A DNA stretch of 32,889 nucleotides, taken from a virus. Position numbers and translations under genes: made by a program. The stretch is from IMG/VR virus record IMGVR_UViG_3300020442_000250, positions 1-32,889 of that record, one strand, 5' to 3'. The notes beneath the pieces are model-generated. The model worked only from the letters and a program-made list of their open reading frames with translations, had not been told where the DNA came from and did no database searches. Shown here in pieces: positions 4,828 to 11,850 of this stretch (its first letter is position 1; each line of letters starts with the position of its first letter).

Positions 4828-5073
4828 TTAGCCCAGTACGGCTATACCTCTAGGGCTGTTAACCTCTTTGATGATATAGCCTTTGCGTACCAAGCATTGA
4901 ATTATACGGTGGGCATTACTGTATGCCGCCATCTTTTTGATGGCCTGCCTGTCACCAATCCTGCCGTTACAGATTTCCCTGACGGTAGGGTAAACGCCAT
5001 TCTCTTTTTGAAACGCAACAATGAACGCAAGGACTTGTTGCTGCCTTGGCGTTAGTCCAATCTTATTCTCCAT
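4828..5073 (-). CDS. LexA DNA-binding-domain-only protein, 81 aa
   Basis: The N-terminal part LTPRQQQVLAFIVAFQKENG, then YPTVREIC, and the C-terminal part LVRKGYIIKEVNSPRGIAVL follow the winged helix-turn-helix of LexA (PF01726): the RQQ-V-L-x-x-I helix, the PTxxEI turn, and the beta-wing ending in RGI-x-L. The protein stops where LexA would continue to its hinge and serine-peptidase domain, so it cannot self-cleave. About ten extra residues (RIGDRQAIKK) interrupt the recognition-helix region relative to E. coli LexA. It is the last gene of the recombination operon and overlaps recT by 11 bases. It probably binds an operator as a repressor, or competes with host LexA; the target is unknown. 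Confidence 0.82.
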   Translation of the reverse strand: MENKIGLTPRQQQVLAFIVAFQKENGVYPTVREICNGRIGDRQAIKKMAAYSNAHRIIQCLVRKGYIIKEVNSPRGIAVLG

Positions 5074-6076
5074 TCTGGTTCTCCCTTGCCATAATGCTGA
5101 GGCTTTTATTCCAGCGCAACCTTTTGTCTTCTAACTCTTGAGCAACCGCCTGGTCATCTAAACTTTCCAAGACATCCTGGTTTAAATCTTTTAGGTCTTT
5201 CATCTTGGTACGTTTAACATCAGGCGGTAGGTCTGGATGCGTTGACTGATACATGGCAAGCTGAAGGTCAGCGTATTTCTCCACCCATTCATTCTGTGTC
5301 TTAAACCATTCAACTCTTTCACCGTCCAAACCTGGCACCTTCAAAGGTATTTCATCTGGAAACTCTGGTGTTTCTGTTTCGTCCTCACCAGGTTCTGCAT
5401 GGTCAGCCATATTATCTATGACCGCATCAGCGTGTGCCTCTCTATCGCCCTCAGAAGCCTGCTGAAGGGCATTGGTTAGCTGTTCGGCAGTTTGTACATT
5501 GGACAGGCTTGGTGCCTGTTCTACGCCATCCTGAGGGGTTATATCTTTTGGCTCTGGATAATCCATTGCTTCCTCAGCTGTAATCATTCCTTTGACTGCA
5601 TCAGGGAACGCATCACGAATAGCAAAGCCTCTGGCCCTCAGCTGCATCATACGTTTGGGGTATTGTTTCCATGGCCCTTGCTTGTTCAACAGGTTGGCAC
5701 GTTGTGCATCCTCTTTGCTGAACTGTGCCAGCGTTGTTTCTTCTTTGCCGTTAGCCAGGGTACGTTTGATTTCACAGAAAGCTATGTCACCTTCCATCCA
5801 TTCCCTTGACCCAGCAAAGGCTGGATGAGATTTAACTAGGGCCAGCAAGCTGTCACCCCACAGGCTGGGCCTGCCGTTAATCACTGCGATGTTTTGCAAA
5901 GCCTGCATTGGTGCAAGGCCAATCTCATATCCCCATTGCACAGCCACCAAGATGTTGGCTGGCTTTGCCTGAAATTCTTTTGGCACCAGCCCAGACTTGG
6001 ATAATGTGTCAGCAAATTCTTTTGCCTCTTTCAAATTAGTTGGCTCAAGTATCTGCCGCTTAACTATATTACTCAT
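5063..6076 (-). CDS. recT: RecT-family single-strand annealing protein, 337 aa
   Basis: Residues about 25-180 follow the RecT pattern: KPANILVAVQWGYEIGLAPM, then ALQNIAVINGRPSLWGDSLL, then GPWKQYPKRMMQLRARGFAI, RDAFPDAVKGM and AEEAMD. These are hallmark segments of phage RecT annealases. The C-terminal third is acidic and variable, as usual. The protein anneals complementary single strands produced by the exonuclease encoded just upstream (overlap of 8 bases) and supports recombination-dependent replication or circularisation. The partner exonuclease is YqaJ-type rather than RecE, a common pairing. Confidence 0.92.
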   Translation of the reverse strand: MSNIVKRQILEPTNLKEAKEFADTLSKSGLVPKEFQAKPANILVAVQWGYEIGLAPMQALQNIAVINGRPSLWGDSLLALVKSHPAFAGSREWMEGDIAFCEIKRTLANGKEETTLAQFSKEDAQRANLLNKQGPWKQYPKRMMQLRARGFAIRDAFPDAVKGMITAEEAMDYPEPKDITPQDGVEQAPSLSNVQTAEQLTNALQQASEGDREAHADAVIDNMADHAEPGEDETETPEFPDEIPLKVPGLDGERVEWFKTQNEWVEKYADLQLAMYQSTHPDLPPDVKRTKMKDLKDLNQDVLESLDDQAVAQELEDKRLRWNKSLSIMARENQNGE

Positions 6077-7013
6077 TTGTAACCTCCTTCACTGAGAACG
6101 ATGAACTGTCTATGTATTCTCCTGGAACCTCCACCATCGTCCTCTTTGGTTTTTGTGTGGTTACAGATTTAACTTGGAAGCTGCCGACATTCATAACGTC
6201 AGCGTCAATGCTGTCCATGTGCATCACAAGGATGTCTTTGTTTTCATCAGCTACCTTCTTCCAGCTTCTCGCTTCAGCTGTAGCTTTCTGATAATCAGTC
6301 AGCACCTGTACCAGGTCTAGGTTGTCACCAGCTTTAGGCTCTACAGTGACAGTCTTCAGCCCTGGCTCTGGCTGCTTCTCTACTGGTGGGTATTCACCGT
6401 CTTCATCAAAGAGTTTCCAGAACTCCCTGGCTGCTTTCAATATCCCTTGGCAAACCATGTCGTCCTTGTGGTAGCCGTAGGTTTTTAGCTTGCCCTTCTG
6501 TGTCATCACCAGGACAATGCCCCACTCCAAACCAGCACACATCATCTGCTGGTGCAGCTGTATCATCCAGTCTGCCTTGCATTTGTCAGCGTGATAGAAA
6601 TCTGTTTTAACCTCCAGCACACCTCTACCGCTGAAAGTATTATCACCAATGACCATCTCGCAATCTTTTGGTATGGTCATGATACGGTCAAGCGTTGCGC
6701 CTAGCCGCTCCTCTTTCATCCTGTATGCATCCTTTGGTTCTTCAGCTGTACAAGTTAGGCCGTCATCCTTCAGCATCTCCAGGAACCATGGCACTATGGC
6801 GTGTTCAAGATAGGTTCCCCTGACCAGGGCATTCTTGTTGAATGCTTTGTGCTTCACCACCTCAACGCCATGCGCTGCCCTCTTGTGGTTGTCCAGGGTA
6901 TCCTGGTTGGTGTTACCGTAGGCATCAACACCCATCATCACAGCTGCCATTTCTGAGGCACCCAACTCTTCACCTGTTATGGTTTTCTTTCCTGTTACTT
7001 TAACGTCTGGCAT
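6069..7013 (-). CDS. YqaJ-type phage exonuclease, 314 aa
   Basis: The ATG at 7013 follows GGAGGAGACGCTAT on the minus strand, so it is preferred over a TTG-type start 36 bases upstream. The YqaJ / lambda-exonuclease-like PD-(D/E)XK core is visible: ELGASEMAAVMMG (16-28), RGTYLEHA with Glu70, LGATLDRI with Asp109, LEVKTD with Glu134-x-Lys136, and IQLHQQM with Gln152. It would degrade one strand of double-stranded DNA ends 5' to 3', providing substrate for RecT. It overlaps recT and the small membrane gene upstream, indicating a single compact operon. Confidence 0.9.
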   Translation of the reverse strand: MPDVKVTGKKTITGEELGASEMAAVMMGVDAYGNTNQDTLDNHKRAAHGVEVVKHKAFNKNALVRGTYLEHAIVPWFLEMLKDDGLTCTAEEPKDAYRMKEERLGATLDRIMTIPKDCEMVIGDNTFSGRGVLEVKTDFYHADKCKADWMIQLHQQMMCAGLEWGIVLVMTQKGKLKTYGYHKDDMVCQGILKAAREFWKLFDEDGEYPPVEKQPEPGLKTVTVEPKAGDNLDLVQVLTDYQKATAEARSWKKVADENKDILVMHMDSIDADVMNVGSFQVKSVTTQKPKRTMVEVPGEYIDSSSFSVKEVTNE

Positions 7014-7177
7014 ATAGCGTCTCCTCCATTTGTATTGTCGCAATAACATTTATCATTCAGCGCACAACCAACCCACATGGAAGCCCATAGAAAAACTACA
7101 ACCACCATGGCACCAATCAACTGCGCCACGAAACTTAGCCAGTCTTTTGCTGACCAATCCTTTACTAACTCTATCAT
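6995..7177 (-). CDS. small Cys-rich membrane protein, 60 aa
   Basis: The start is ATGA-coupled to the upstream gene's stop. One hydrophobic segment at about residues 15-38 is followed by a short tail with four Cys spaced as GC-x5-C-x-C-x8-C. The tail could be periplasmic and disulfide-bonded. It overlaps the exonuclease start by 19 bases. I do not recognise a family. A membrane peptide inside a recombination operon could act in exclusion or host control; that is speculation. Confidence 0.6.
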   Translation of the reverse strand: MIELVKDWSAKDWLSFVAQLIGAMVVVVFLWASMWVGCALNDKCYCDNTNGGDAICQTLK

Positions 7178-7413
7178 CCTCTAAACCCCCAATGATAAAC
7201 GTCTGCTTGCAATTCACTCAAAGCATTCCACGCTGCATAAGCTGCAAGGCCTTTGTCTGTTGAGCATTGGGCGGTGCCTGTTCCTCTATCCAATGGCTTT
7301 CCCTCCGCTGCCTCAAACTCTTTTGCGTACCCATTCATGCGCTGGCCTATATGACCATACACACTAGCTTTACTGAAACGCTGCTCGATATAATTAAGTT
7401 TTGATGTTGTCAT
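7174..7413 (-). CDS. hypothetical protein, 79 aa
   Basis: The soluble, helix-rich product begins MTTSKLNYIEQRFSKA and ends ELQADVYHWGFRG. It has one Cys, no membrane segment and no motif I recognise. It overlaps the upstream gene by 20 bases and the downstream gene by 4, so it is part of the recombinase-to-RecT operon. Confidence 0.6.
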   Translation of the reverse strand: MTTSKLNYIEQRFSKASVYGHIGQRMNGYAKEFEAAEGKPLDRGTGTAQCSTDKGLAAYAAWNALSELQADVYHWGFRG

Positions 7414-7570
7414 TTGAACAAGCCTCCTGTTCTTCTAAGTAGTAAGTGTGCGCTGGGTTCTCTCGCTGTTCCTTGTCCATGAATGCCAGCGCATCATTCA
7501 CGGAGTTAAATGTTTTGACTACCTGTTCCTGGTAAGAGTAACCATTCATGCAGATAACTTTGTAAATCAT
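7394..7570 (-). CDS. hypothetical protein, 58 aa
   Basis: The ATG at 7570 overlaps the recombinase stop (ATGA), which supports this start over a longer frame that would run into the recombinase gene. The peptide MIYKVICMNGYSYQE... has alternating strand-helix character and looks like a small alpha/beta domain. No function can be assigned. Confidence 0.6.
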   Translation of the reverse strand: MIYKVICMNGYSYQEQVVKTFNSVNDALAFMDKEQRENPAHTYYLEEQEACSNDNIKT

Positions 7571-9169: not shown

Positions 9170-10090
9170 CTAAGCAGCTGCCTCCTCCTGTTGTGGCTGC
9201 TTGTTGTAAAGAAACTCAACAGCCTTGTTAGCCTGGGTGAATGCAGTGAACACTGCCTTAGGATTGTCTTTGATAGCCTTCATCCAGCTATTAAGATACT
9301 GAGCATGGTCAGCCCTTGGCTCAGGTGATACACCCAACAACACTGACAGTGTCGCTGCGCCAGTCTCAGCTACCAACTCTTCAAAGGCATAGTCAGCATC
9401 ACCAAACATCTTGCCCTTGGTTCTGTCGATGCGGCCCTTGCCACCAGTCCAGTGTACCAACTCATGCAACAGTGTAGAGTAGTATGCTTCTTCAGCAGTG
9501 CTAGTCTCAGTGCCTACAAAGTCTGCCTTGTTTGGCATTTGGATGTAGTCACCAGCTGGACGGTAGTAAGCCTGACCGCCACCGTGTCTGACATCTGCGC
9601 CAGTGTTGGCAACAAACTGCTCGACTTGGTCAGCGTGAAACTCAGGGTCAGCTGATACTACAGGCTGGGCATTATCTTCCAGGCCAGTAATCTGGTCACG
9701 GTTCCAGACGCTGTAAGTCTTCAGCATAAAGATTTGCTTTTTGATTACCTCGCCCTTGTCATTCTTCAGCACGTTGCCATCAACGCCCTTGGCATCAACG
9801 TCAATCTTCTTCCAGAAGAATACTGTTGTTGCACCCTTTGGTACTACACCACCAGCTGCTGTCCATTGCTTGTATGTACCCCAGACATTGCTGCTGTAAC
9901 CTTTTTCCAAGGCTTCCATTCCCAACAGGAATGTATTGATACCCTGATATGTTTTCTTACTAACAACATTCATTGGCAAACCATCAGCAACTTTGCTTGC
10001 CCATGGCTTGGCCCAATCGGTGCCGTGCTTTTCCATCAGTGCAACAATCTTGTCTGCTACGGCCTGGATTTTTTCTGCTTGTTTTGTCAT
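9170..10090 (-). CDS. ardC: ArdC-like antirestriction protein with zincin-like metallopeptidase domain, 306 aa
   Basis: The N-terminal domain (about 1-130) matches the ArdC ssDNA-binding module, with NVVSKKTYQGINTFLL (41-56) and the VVPKGATTVFFWKK segment (82-95). The C-terminal domain is a polyvalent-protein-type metallopeptidase with LLHELVHWTGG (HExxH-type zinc site, 209-213) and FEELVAE (236-242) as the likely third ligand. ArdC proteins protect incoming DNA from host restriction. A GGGAGGA site lies 6 bases before the ATG. The gene is second in the leftward operon controlled from the divergent region, 11 bases after a membrane peptide gene. Confidence 0.9.
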   Translation of the reverse strand: MTKQAEKIQAVADKIVALMEKHGTDWAKPWASKVADGLPMNVVSKKTYQGINTFLLGMEALEKGYSSNVWGTYKQWTAAGGVVPKGATTVFFWKKIDVDAKGVDGNVLKNDKGEVIKKQIFMLKTYSVWNRDQITGLEDNAQPVVSADPEFHADQVEQFVANTGADVRHGGGQAYYRPAGDYIQMPNKADFVGTETSTAEEAYYSTLLHELVHWTGGKGRIDRTKGKMFGDADYAFEELVAETGAATLSVLLGVSPEPRADHAQYLNSWMKAIKDNPKAVFTAFTQANKAVEFLYNKQPQQEEAAA

Positions 10091-10101: not shown

Positions 10102-10212
10102 CTATTTAAAGTTACGTTTGATTTCATTCACGCAGTCCATAACGAATATGCACCAGCCAGTGATGCCTACGATGCCGCCTGCGAGAAGAATTAAAAAGAT
10201 TGTATCAGCCAT
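10102..10212 (-). CDS. 36-aa single-segment membrane peptide
   Basis: A minus-strand ATG at 10212 opens a 36-codon frame ending at TAG (10102-10104). The peptide MADTIFLILLAGGIVGITGW... has one hydrophobic segment (about residues 4-25) and a short charged C-terminus. An AGGAT sequence lies upstream. It is the first gene of the ArdC operon, directly below the SOS-box/promoter region, so it would be expressed first. It is too short for routine gene calling. A role in superinfection exclusion or membrane signalling is possible but unsupported. Confidence 0.6.
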   Translation of the reverse strand: MADTIFLILLAGGIVGITGWCIFVMDCVNEIKRNFK

Positions 10213-10224
10213 TTGTTTTATCCT

Positions 10225-10239
10225 GTTCTGTTCATGTTC
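10225..10239. promoter_or_regulatory. LexA (SOS) box, alphaproteobacterial type
   Basis: The sequence GTTC-TGTTCAT-GTTC exactly matches the GTTC-N7-GTTC consensus bound by LexA in Alphaproteobacteria. It lies in the intergenic region, just downstream of the leftward -10 box and 12 bases upstream of the ATG at 10212. LexA bound there would block the leftward operon until DNA damage. One such match is expected by chance in a genome this size, but its location in the main control region makes it notable. Confidence 0.6.
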
Positions 10240-10243
10240 TGTA

Positions 10244-10272
10244 TTGTTAAGTTAATATCTATCAGATATATT
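10244..10272 (+). promoter_or_regulatory. rightward promoter of the replication/morphogenesis block
   Basis: A -35-like TTGTTA (10244-10249), a 17-base spacer and a -10-like TATATT (10267-10272) precede the ribbon-helix-helix gene at 10316 by 43 bases. The dyad 10255-10269 covers the spacer and the -10 box, so this promoter can be occluded by the same protein as the leftward one. Confidence 0.55.
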
Positions 10273-10277
10273 GTCAA
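10249..10277 (-). promoter_or_regulatory. leftward promoter of the ArdC operon
   Basis: On the minus strand a consensus -35 TTGACA (10272-10277) is followed after 17 bases by a weak -10 TAACTT (10249-10254). The weak -10 with a perfect -35 is typical of a regulated promoter. It overlaps the rightward promoter almost completely, so the two are likely mutually exclusive. Confidence 0.5.
10255..10269. promoter_or_regulatory. dyad operator between divergent promoters
   Basis: ATATCT-ATC-AGATAT is a perfect 6+6 inverted repeat with a 3-base spacer. It sits in the spacer of both divergent promoters, the classic position for a repressor site. The adjacent ribbon-helix-helix gene (10316) is the most likely source of the binding protein. 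Confidence 0.55.
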
Positions 10278-10315
10278 GCTATCTAGTAAATATTTTTTTG
10301 ATAGGAGATAAATGC

Positions 10316-10492
10316 ATGGAAAAACAACAGGATAATGCTGAGGAAAAACAGCTAGACCTGGTTCCGATGTATGTAAAAGTTTCGCCTGAGGTAAAGCAGC
10401 TGGTGCAGAACAAAGCTAGGCTGGAGAGGCGCAGCCTTGCCAGCATGGTGGAGATATTACTGCGTGAAAGCTGCGAGGCTAAACGTGCGTAG
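10316..10492 (+). CDS. ribbon-helix-helix (CopG/Arc-like) regulator, 58 aa
   Basis: The ATG at 10316 follows TAGGAGATAAATGC and is preferred over an in-frame TTG at 10271 that would lie inside the promoter. The product has a short polar lead, a beta-strand VPMYVKVSPEVKQLV, and two helices with KARLERRSLASMVEILLRE, the fold and spacing of CopG/Arc-type repressors. It is the first gene of the rightward block, immediately beside the dyad operators, and probably autoregulates. It overlaps the next gene's GTG start. Confidence 0.8.
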   Translation: MEKQQDNAEEKQLDLVPMYVKVSPEVKQLVQNKARLERRSLASMVEILLRESCEAKRA

Positions 10493-10901
10493 GCCCAGCA
10501 AGTACGGCAACAAAAGATATCAGCTGGACGGCATCAGCTTTATGAGCAAGGCTGAGGCTGCATACTACTGGTTCTATTTAAAGCAGCGACATGAGGCTGG
10601 CGAGATAACTCACCTGGAGTTCCAGCCCAGGATACGCTGCGAGATTGAGGGGGAAAAGATATGCGACTACATAGCAGACTTTGCATACTTCGACAGGCAA
10701 GAAGAAGGCAGACATGGGCAGCACGGTTGCCATGTCATCATAGAGGTGAAGGGATACAAGACAGACGTATACAAGCTGAAGATGAAGCTAGTTCATGCGC
10801 TGCACCGTGCGTCCAAGATTATAGTAATACCAGCCAGCAGTCTGAGAAAAGAGATAGCCCAGCTGCCACCGCAGGAAGGCAAGCCAGGTGAAGAAGACTA
10901 A
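10485..10901 (+). CDS. DUF1064-type PD-(D/E)XK nuclease, 138 aa
   Basis: A GTG at 10485, after GCGAGGCTAAAC, starts right before the conserved RRPSKYGNKRYQLDGISFM. This matches DUF1064. The nuclease core is visible as SKAEAAYYW (Glu24), CDYIADFAYF (Asp65) and VIIEVKGY (Glu87-x-Lys89), followed by the K-x-K-x-K helix. Such proteins occur in phage replication/recombination modules and are likely structure-specific endonucleases acting on recombination intermediates. It overlaps the upstream gene by 8 bases and the downstream one by 14. Confidence 0.85.
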   Translation: MRRPSKYGNKRYQLDGISFMSKAEAAYYWFYLKQRHEAGEITHLEFQPRIRCEIEGEKICDYIADFAYFDRQEEGRHGQHGCHVIIEVKGYKTDVYKLKMKLVHALHRASKIIVIPASSLRKEIAQLPPQEGKPGEED

Positions 10902-11850
10902 ACTTACACCAGACCCAGTGCGTGACCCTCCAGTAAAGTCTGGGGGCAGTTACCAGTGTCCTGGGCCACACATGATTATGCCAGCCAGGGCATATGGTGA
11001 TGATAGATTTAATCAGTATCCAATGACGTTTAGGGCATTCGCTATTTGTTGCAGCCATGCCAACAGCTGGACAGGCGTATTCTTCCCTAACCAGCTTTAC
11101 ATAGCCAATGTATTACAGTGCAGCCAGCAGGCAGTGTCGCAGCATATGCGTAAACTACTAGACTATGGATACATTGAGAAGCTACGCAATGCAGATGTAA
11201 GGCGCAGCTATGGTAAACGTGGCGCACTGTGGCGTGTCATCTATGACCCAACAAAGACACTAGATGATTGTATTGCTGGACAGCCAGCACAAGACCGTGA
11301 TCCTGAGATAGAGGCAGAAATAGCCAAGCATACTATGAATGTCGCAAAGACTGGGGCCAGGGAGAAAAGCATAAAGGCTGTGGATAAAGAACAAGTAAAC
11401 AAGACACAGCTTGTACAAGGTGCAGCTAGTAATACTGTCAATGGTCATGCAGTTAACAAGCCTGACCTTGTACTAGATAACAAGGCCCAGCTAGTAAATA
11501 ACTCTATTAAATTAACTAATATAAATACTATAGGGGAAATTAAAGAAATAGATTGTAGGAAGCTGTGCAACGGTTATGGCGAGATACTGCAAGGTAAGTA
11601 TGGCAAGCCATGGAGTTATGACATGAGACAGATGCAGATAGCCAAAGAGTTACTGCAAGCTGGCTATACCCTGGAGACATTCCTAGCAGATGCAGCTGGT
11701 GTAATAGAATGGAAGCATAACAAGAACCAGCAACCACCATACAGCTTGCAATACTTCATGAGTAGAAAGGTATCACAAGAGAAAGCTAAGACTGGTAAAG
11801 ATGTAAACGATATCATCAAACAGATGAGCAACAAGATGAGATTACGATGA
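10888..11850 (+). CDS. winged-helix replication-type protein (phage O-like), 320 aa
   Basis: The start is GTG at 10888 with AGGAAGG upstream. Residues about 45-115 form a winged helix-turn-helix: QLYIANVLQCSQQAVSQHMR followed by KLLDYGYIEKL, typical of phage replication proteins and plasmid initiators. A polar, low-complexity linker (about 130-210) leads to a C-terminal helical domain, a layout seen in O-like or DnaD-like helicase loaders. With no helicase or polymerase in the genome, it probably recruits the host replisome. A purely regulatory role is the alternative. Confidence 0.68.
   Translation: MKKTKLTPDPVRDPPVKSGGSYQCPGPHMIMPARAYGDDRFNQYPMTFRAFAICCSHANSWTGVFFPNQLYIANVLQCSQQAVSQHMRKLLDYGYIEKLRNADVRRSYGKRGALWRVIYDPTKTLDDCIAGQPAQDRDPEIEAEIAKHTMNVAKTGAREKSIKAVDKEQVNKTQLVQGAASNTVNGHAVNKPDLVLDNKAQLVNNSIKLTNINTIGEIKEIDCRKLCNGYGEILQGKYGKPWSYDMRQMQIAKELLQAGYTLETFLADAAGVIEWKHNKNQQPPYSLQYFMSRKVSQEKAKTGKDVNDIIKQMSNKMRLR

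Follow-up and report, generated by a model that had tools for sequence, protein, structure and literature searches.

A conserved LexA-type direct repeat and a phage-encoded LexA DNA-binding domain as a candidate autoregulatory pair in an uncultured phage

The divergent promoter region of a virus represented by a 32,889-base IMG/VR record (the whole of which was analysed and is hereafter called the window) carries a direct repeat, GTTC-N7-GTTC, that is conserved among close relatives, and the operon that begins beside this repeat ends with a gene for a protein comprising the DNA-binding domain of LexA (mini-LexA). We consider it probable that the repeat is an operator read mainly by mini-LexA, an arrangement that would produce delayed autorepression of a recombination operon. 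A host LexA, if of the alphaproteobacterial type, may bind the same box, for which mini-LexA is the better candidate reader. The features concerned are collected in Table 1.

Table 1. Features of the window discussed in the text (positions are those of the window)
Feature	Coordinates	Strand	Basis
Mini-LexA, 81 aa, last gene of leftward operon	4828..5073	-	Pfam LexA_DNA_bind (PF01726) 37.7 bits, cut-off 23.7
RecT-like annealing protein	5063..6076	-	Pfam RecT 1.7e-6, PHROG 561 3e-51
YqaJ/RecE-like exonuclease	6069..7049	-	Pfam YqaJ 8e-6, PHROG 434 1.5e-21
53-aa ORF, unlisted	7409-7570	-	between serine recombinase and ORF 7174-7413
Small serine recombinase, 230 aa	7567..8259	-	Pfam Resolvase 1.7e-16, Recombinase 5e-9
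ArdC-like anti-restriction protein, variable cargo	9170..10090	-	Pfam ArdcN 8e-30, MPTase-PolyVal 3e-43
36-aa membrane-like ORF, first leftward gene in the window's lineage	10102..10212	-	translation
Putative GTTC-N7-GTTC direct-repeat operator (alphaproteobacterial LexA-box type)	10225..10239	+	exact match, GTTCTGTTCATGTTC
Predicted rightward promoter, TTGTTA, 17 bp, TATATT	10244..10272	+	consensus scan; -10 invariant in close relatives
Predicted leftward promoter, TTGACA (10272-10277), 17 bp, TAACTT (10249-10254)	10249..10277	-	direct reading
Dyad ATATCT-ATC-AGATAT, ATATCTATCAGATAT, in shared promoter spacer	10255..10269	.	direct reading
Ribbon-helix-helix (RHH, Arc-like) protein, 58 aa, first rightward gene	10316..10492	+	PHROG 3431 (Arc-like repressor) E 2e-4
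DUF1064 protein (PHROG Holliday junction resolvase)	10437..10901	+	Pfam 1e-13, PHROG 190 4e-30
Winged-helix replication initiator-like protein	10888..11850	+	Pfam HTH_36 6e-6, PHROG 270 2e-5

The box within the divergent promoter region

The sequence GTTC-N7-GTTC is the published motif of alphaproteobacterial LexA (PMC3323433). When transcript starts are placed from the promoter hexamers, which also define both predicted promoters, the box falls at roughly +3 to +18 on the leftward transcript, with its centre at approximately -47 relative to the rightward start. The rightward hexamers score 9/12 in a consensus scan. The leftward promoter is absent from the list generated by that scan because its -10 element matches the consensus at only three of six positions, and relatives carry better versions of this element (TAAATT, TAGATT, TATATT with a 16-bp spacer). 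The two promoters coincide almost base for base and face to face. An earlier sequence-only reading had described a perfect box at the start of the leftward transcript and nearly complete overlap of the two promoters around a dyad, and both descriptions are borne out. Its broader proposal of a switch is supported to the extent that a conserved LexA box of the alphaproteobacterial type lies in a compact divergent arrangement with an RHH gene.

There are four GTTC-N7-GTTC boxes in the window, compared with 0.71 expected from shuffled sequences, and the copy at 10225 is the sole intergenic one. The remaining copies reside in coding DNA, namely in the RecE gene at 6803, in the 53-aa ORF at 7457 (where the letters provide codons for E-Q-R-E-N) and in the portal region at 16906. 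The idea that these three copies form a regulon was rejected because all are coding.

Relatives were collected by using ArdC, the replication protein and mini-LexA as queries, with the replication initiator-like protein serving as the anchor for locating them. The conservation alignment was anchored on the box, which is present in every close relative with a complete region. Among ten distinct close relatives, all eight columns of the box core are invariant, whereas the spacer between the half-sites retains only one invariant column of seven and varies in the other six. The flanking DNA varies as well, with invariant columns numbering 2 of 30 in the left flank and 3 of 15 in the dyad. Members of this close clade have the box some 660 bases upstream of the replication gene (909 in L031), with five different spacers among them. 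Conservation of the GTTC pair in related genomes was one of the two results on which the sequence-only reading had staked its proposal, and the invariance of the core bears it out. The same comparison speaks against the dyad as the main operator, and its candidacy for this role was dropped, although it is possibly an RHH operator limited to the window's lineage.

The rightward block begins with the RHH gene, whose product is modelled (AF2 pLDDT 84) as a short N-terminal segment followed by two helices, and the terminase and structural genes come after the replication initiator. By terminase, the nearest isolate is Methylophilales phage MEP301 (65.5%). Host searches yielded no match when performed with the phage DNA, or with the replication protein among phages and genomes, and a terminase search of genomes recovered only three MAG contigs whose binning is uncertain. 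No clear prophage was found in the genome contigs, and the window does carry a small serine recombinase. Searches for tRNAs and Rfam families in the window returned none.

The leftward operon and its LexA DNA-binding domain

The first leftward gene varies among relatives (ArdC, the serine recombinase or others) while the box stays in place, and thus the box is part of the operon core rather than an accessory of ArdC. In the window this first gene is the 36-aa ORF, which has homologues only in L031 (75%) and L026 (100%). The constant cargo of the operon consists of the serine recombinase, RecE, RecT and mini-LexA; the recombinase may act as an integrase, an invertase or a resolvase. ArdC is missing from the leftward operon of four relatives (L029, L030, L033 and L057) that nevertheless retain the box. 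The LexA checkpoint on an ArdC operon that had been proposed from the sequence is not supported by this comparison, and ArdC was rejected as the reason for the box because it is gained and lost among relatives.

Mini-LexA follows RecT on the same strand in 52/52 distinct loci with enough sequence, which places it at the distal end of the box-bearing operon in every case. The best PDB matches to its AF2 model (pLDDT 92) are all LexA (3jso, 1lea and others), and LexA also ranks first when solved structures are searched with a profile of the protein. Both Pfam and the model identify the winged-helix DNA-binding domain of LexA, and this domain stands alone because the chain stops at residue 81. 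The C-terminal S24 domain of a full LexA, with its Ala-Gly cleavage site, is absent from mini-LexA, and an S24 protease (PF00717) is encoded in 0/13 records (the window and 12 relatives). The part of the sequence-only reading that denied the phage a CI-type repressor therefore stands, but the suggestion that the promoter region may hold the whole circuit is not supported, as it overlooked mini-LexA.

The recognition helix of mini-LexA, YSNAHRII (SNAHR), has S, H and R in common with the SKSGIHR helix of alphaproteobacterial LexA. Sequences of this LexA kind were drawn from a genome sample and assigned to the class by helix and box; with the class so defined, all 15 parsed proteins carry SKSGIHR or SKSGVHR, and all 15 have GTTC-N7-GTTC or GAAC-N7-GAAC before their own lexA gene, some with triple half-sites. 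An insertion of about eight residues lies between helices 2 and 3 of mini-LexA (residues 37-48) and is modelled with short strands. This insertion adjoins the recognition helix and is missing in host LexA and in the protein of L105.

Half-site drift in the wider family

Distant relatives have direct-repeat half-sites at 11-bp steps in the same place, but with other letters. GTAC half-sites occur in L053, L056, L059, L120 and L137, GTTC is paired with GTAC in L062 and GTTT with GTTC in L042, L201 carries GCTC, and GTTC recurs in L131 and L105. In a test that makes no assumption about the letters, identical 4-mers occur at lag 11 in 21 of 25 promoter clusters, against 5.0 expected, and at lag 22 in 13 of the 25, and the remaining lags show nothing of note. 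A second 11-bp repeat, GATAGC-N5-GATAGC, in the promoter spacer contributes some of the signal at lag 11. Counting only LexA-like half-sites gives 20/25 clusters against 1.4 expected, although this half-site class was picked post hoc and the unbiased 4-mer test is the trustworthy one. The GATAGC repeat is probably an RHH operator. In six loci (L050, L059, L062, L124, L137 and L168) the promoter spacer contains a well-kept GATAGC-N5-GATAGC or the inverted form GATAGCAC-N-GTGCTATC.

Comparison of half-sites with recognition helices is suggestive only of letters that change partly in step with the helix. Lineages with GTAC alone have lost the helix H and show SVSI, SVSR, TIVQ or SVQR instead. L131 (SVQRI, two GTTC half-sites) and L056 (TIVQI, three GTAC half-sites) have nearly the same promoters, yet all half-sites have changed, and their mini-LexA proteins are 39% identical whereas neighbouring proteins are 58-83% identical. 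With all 23 loci a partial Mantel test is significant (r 0.33, P 0.002), but thinning to 17 lineages raises P to 0.10-0.12, and the claim of clean covariation was not sustained. There are also exceptions: the H-R pair is missing from L105 and L131 although both keep GTTC, and it is present in L062, where one half-site is GTAC.

Two further comparisons concern the protein itself. L124 and L126 are 100% identical in serine recombinase, RHH and DUF1064 proteins and 97% in RecT, whereas their mini-LexA proteins are just 81% identical and differ in the recognition helix, a pattern that resembles fast-diverging immunity repressors. L105, a Flavobacteriaceae MAG contig, has the same synteny; its LexA-domain protein has no insertion, and its GTTC array is triple. 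Canonical LexA is reported to be absent in Bacteroidetes (PMC8565304), and therefore, provided that the contig is correctly binned, a canonical host LexA cannot be what the L105 array serves.

Proposed regulation, alternatives and known systems

We infer binding, repression, their timing and the role of the RHH protein from the box and its conservation, the mini-LexA gene and its predicted fold, the operon order and the 11-bp periodicity. Upon entry, mini-LexA would be absent and the leftward promoter would fire, and the resulting burst would yield ArdC or other cargo, the serine recombinase, RecE, RecT and finally mini-LexA. Mini-LexA would then occupy the direct repeat immediately past the leftward start, probably with monomers arranged head to tail at a distance of one helical turn, and switch the operon off by delayed negative autoregulation. 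This shut-off would free the overlapping rightward promoter, which is predicted to serve the RHH, replication, packaging and structural genes, and the RHH protein would probably close the loop by acting on the promoter spacer. Lacking a protease domain, mini-LexA would exert this control independently of RecA.

The strongest rival, which we judge unlikely, makes host LexA the sole reader, such that the leftward operon is SOS-regulated and remains off until RecA triggers LexA cleavage, while mini-LexA acts elsewhere. The box matches the alphaproteobacterial consensus perfectly (PMC3323433), both of its orientations precede host lexA genes, and GIL01 and other phages use host LexA (PMC4551915). 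Indeed, since the box equals the consensus, the close clade would equally be accounted for by host LexA on its own, which counts against a mini-LexA operator. However, distant relatives carry GTAC-N7-GTAC or GCTC-N7-GCTC, forms present in no sampled alphaproteobacterial lexA promoter, and a LexA-type domain gene is always inside the controlled operon. Exclusive reading by host LexA would also require the host to be alphaproteobacterial, and repression of ArdC by host LexA at entry would be self-defeating, although this last point is an argument rather than data. Mini-LexA itself could have its target elsewhere or serve as an activator. The box centre falls at a usual position for an activator relative to the rightward start, and late transcription is activated by GIL01 gp6, which likewise consists of just a LexA DNA-binding domain (PMC6182141). 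That mini-LexA activates the rightward (lytic) promoter as gp6 does at P3, with leftward repression as a side effect, is nonetheless improbable, because a box squarely over the leftward start and a reader encoded leftward better fit feedback, and because the rightward hexamers have no obvious need of help.

Other explanations dispense with LexA-type binding. The array might serve as operator for the RHH protein or some other factor and resemble a LexA box by convergence, an idea favoured by the second 11-bp repeat in the spacer of distant relatives. RHH proteins such as Arc are able to bind repeats approximately one helical turn apart. However, the GATAGC repeat makes a more natural site for an RHH protein, and eight of eight bases fit the LexA consensus in a phage with a matching LexA helix, which leaves this explanation very improbable. 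As for a fortuitous GTTC pair in a T-rich leader, the number of boxes expected per window at random is not negligible, but a core that is conserved while its spacer changes refutes chance, which is also at odds with the lag-11 enrichment, and we give it almost no credence.

Delayed autorepression by mini-LexA, if correct, would mean that an uncultured marine phage group drives an early operon by a minimal LexA without a damage sensor, and it suggests that these phages possess a reduced version of the host SOS switch, insensitive to damage, with which they time their own genes. The helices and operators (GTTC, GTAC and GCTC) would constitute a natural series for testing the LexA recognition code, and for probing how LexA domains bind a direct instead of an inverted repeat. 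A bolder extension, which we regard as rather unlikely, is that mini-LexA retains host-box specificity and holds down host SOS promoters and resident prophages despite RecA, while the same box times the phage recombination operon; the fast-changing helix and operator would then be an immunity-type specificity pair, and a testable route by which a phage silences host SOS would be at hand. Truncated phage LexA (GIL01 gp6) and LexA-controlled phage promoters are already known, and a limited literature search found no mini-LexA that regulates its own recombination operon through an evolving direct-repeat operator of 11-bp spacing at the operon's head.

Alphaproteobacterial LexA provides one parallel. 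The phage box is a conserved, exact match at the putative leftward start, although the consensus may not be that of the host, and the letters, spacing, both orientations, the S, H and R of the helix and, in some genomes, triple half-sites at 11-bp steps are shared. Alphaproteobacterial LexA autoregulates through GTTC-N7-GTTC, as mini-LexA would do. However, mini-LexA has the helix 2-3 insertion, lacks the S24 domain and hence RecA-induced cleavage, and its box sits on a phage operon instead of SOS genes.

Phage promoters controlled by host LexA include those of coliphage 186 tum and N15 antC. They resemble the present case in that a phage promoter bears a LexA-type box, but they are damage-induced via host LexA, whereas here the likelier reader is a domain that the phage itself encodes. 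GIL01 P1, with gp7, is another phage promoter under host LexA control (PMC4551915).

The nearest precedent is the truncated LexA homologue gp6 of the Bacillus tectivirus GIL01, which activates a late promoter via the palindrome GaCACAnnTGTGaC (PMC6182141). Compared by description, gp6 and mini-LexA are both small phage-encoded LexA winged-helix domains without the protease, each in a phage with adjoining LexA-type boxes and no CI-type repressor. Whereas gp6 has a palindromic target, the site conserved in the present phages is a direct repeat, which heads mini-LexA's own operon and probably mediates repression; the phage is also tailed and of another family, and the helix 2-3 insertion is a further difference. 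A lambda-type Cro/CI switch similarly has overlapping divergent promoters and two small DNA-binding proteins, one per operon, but in the present arrangement RHH and LexA-type proteins replace the lambda-repressor HTH, and the switch would operate without a cleavable repressor.
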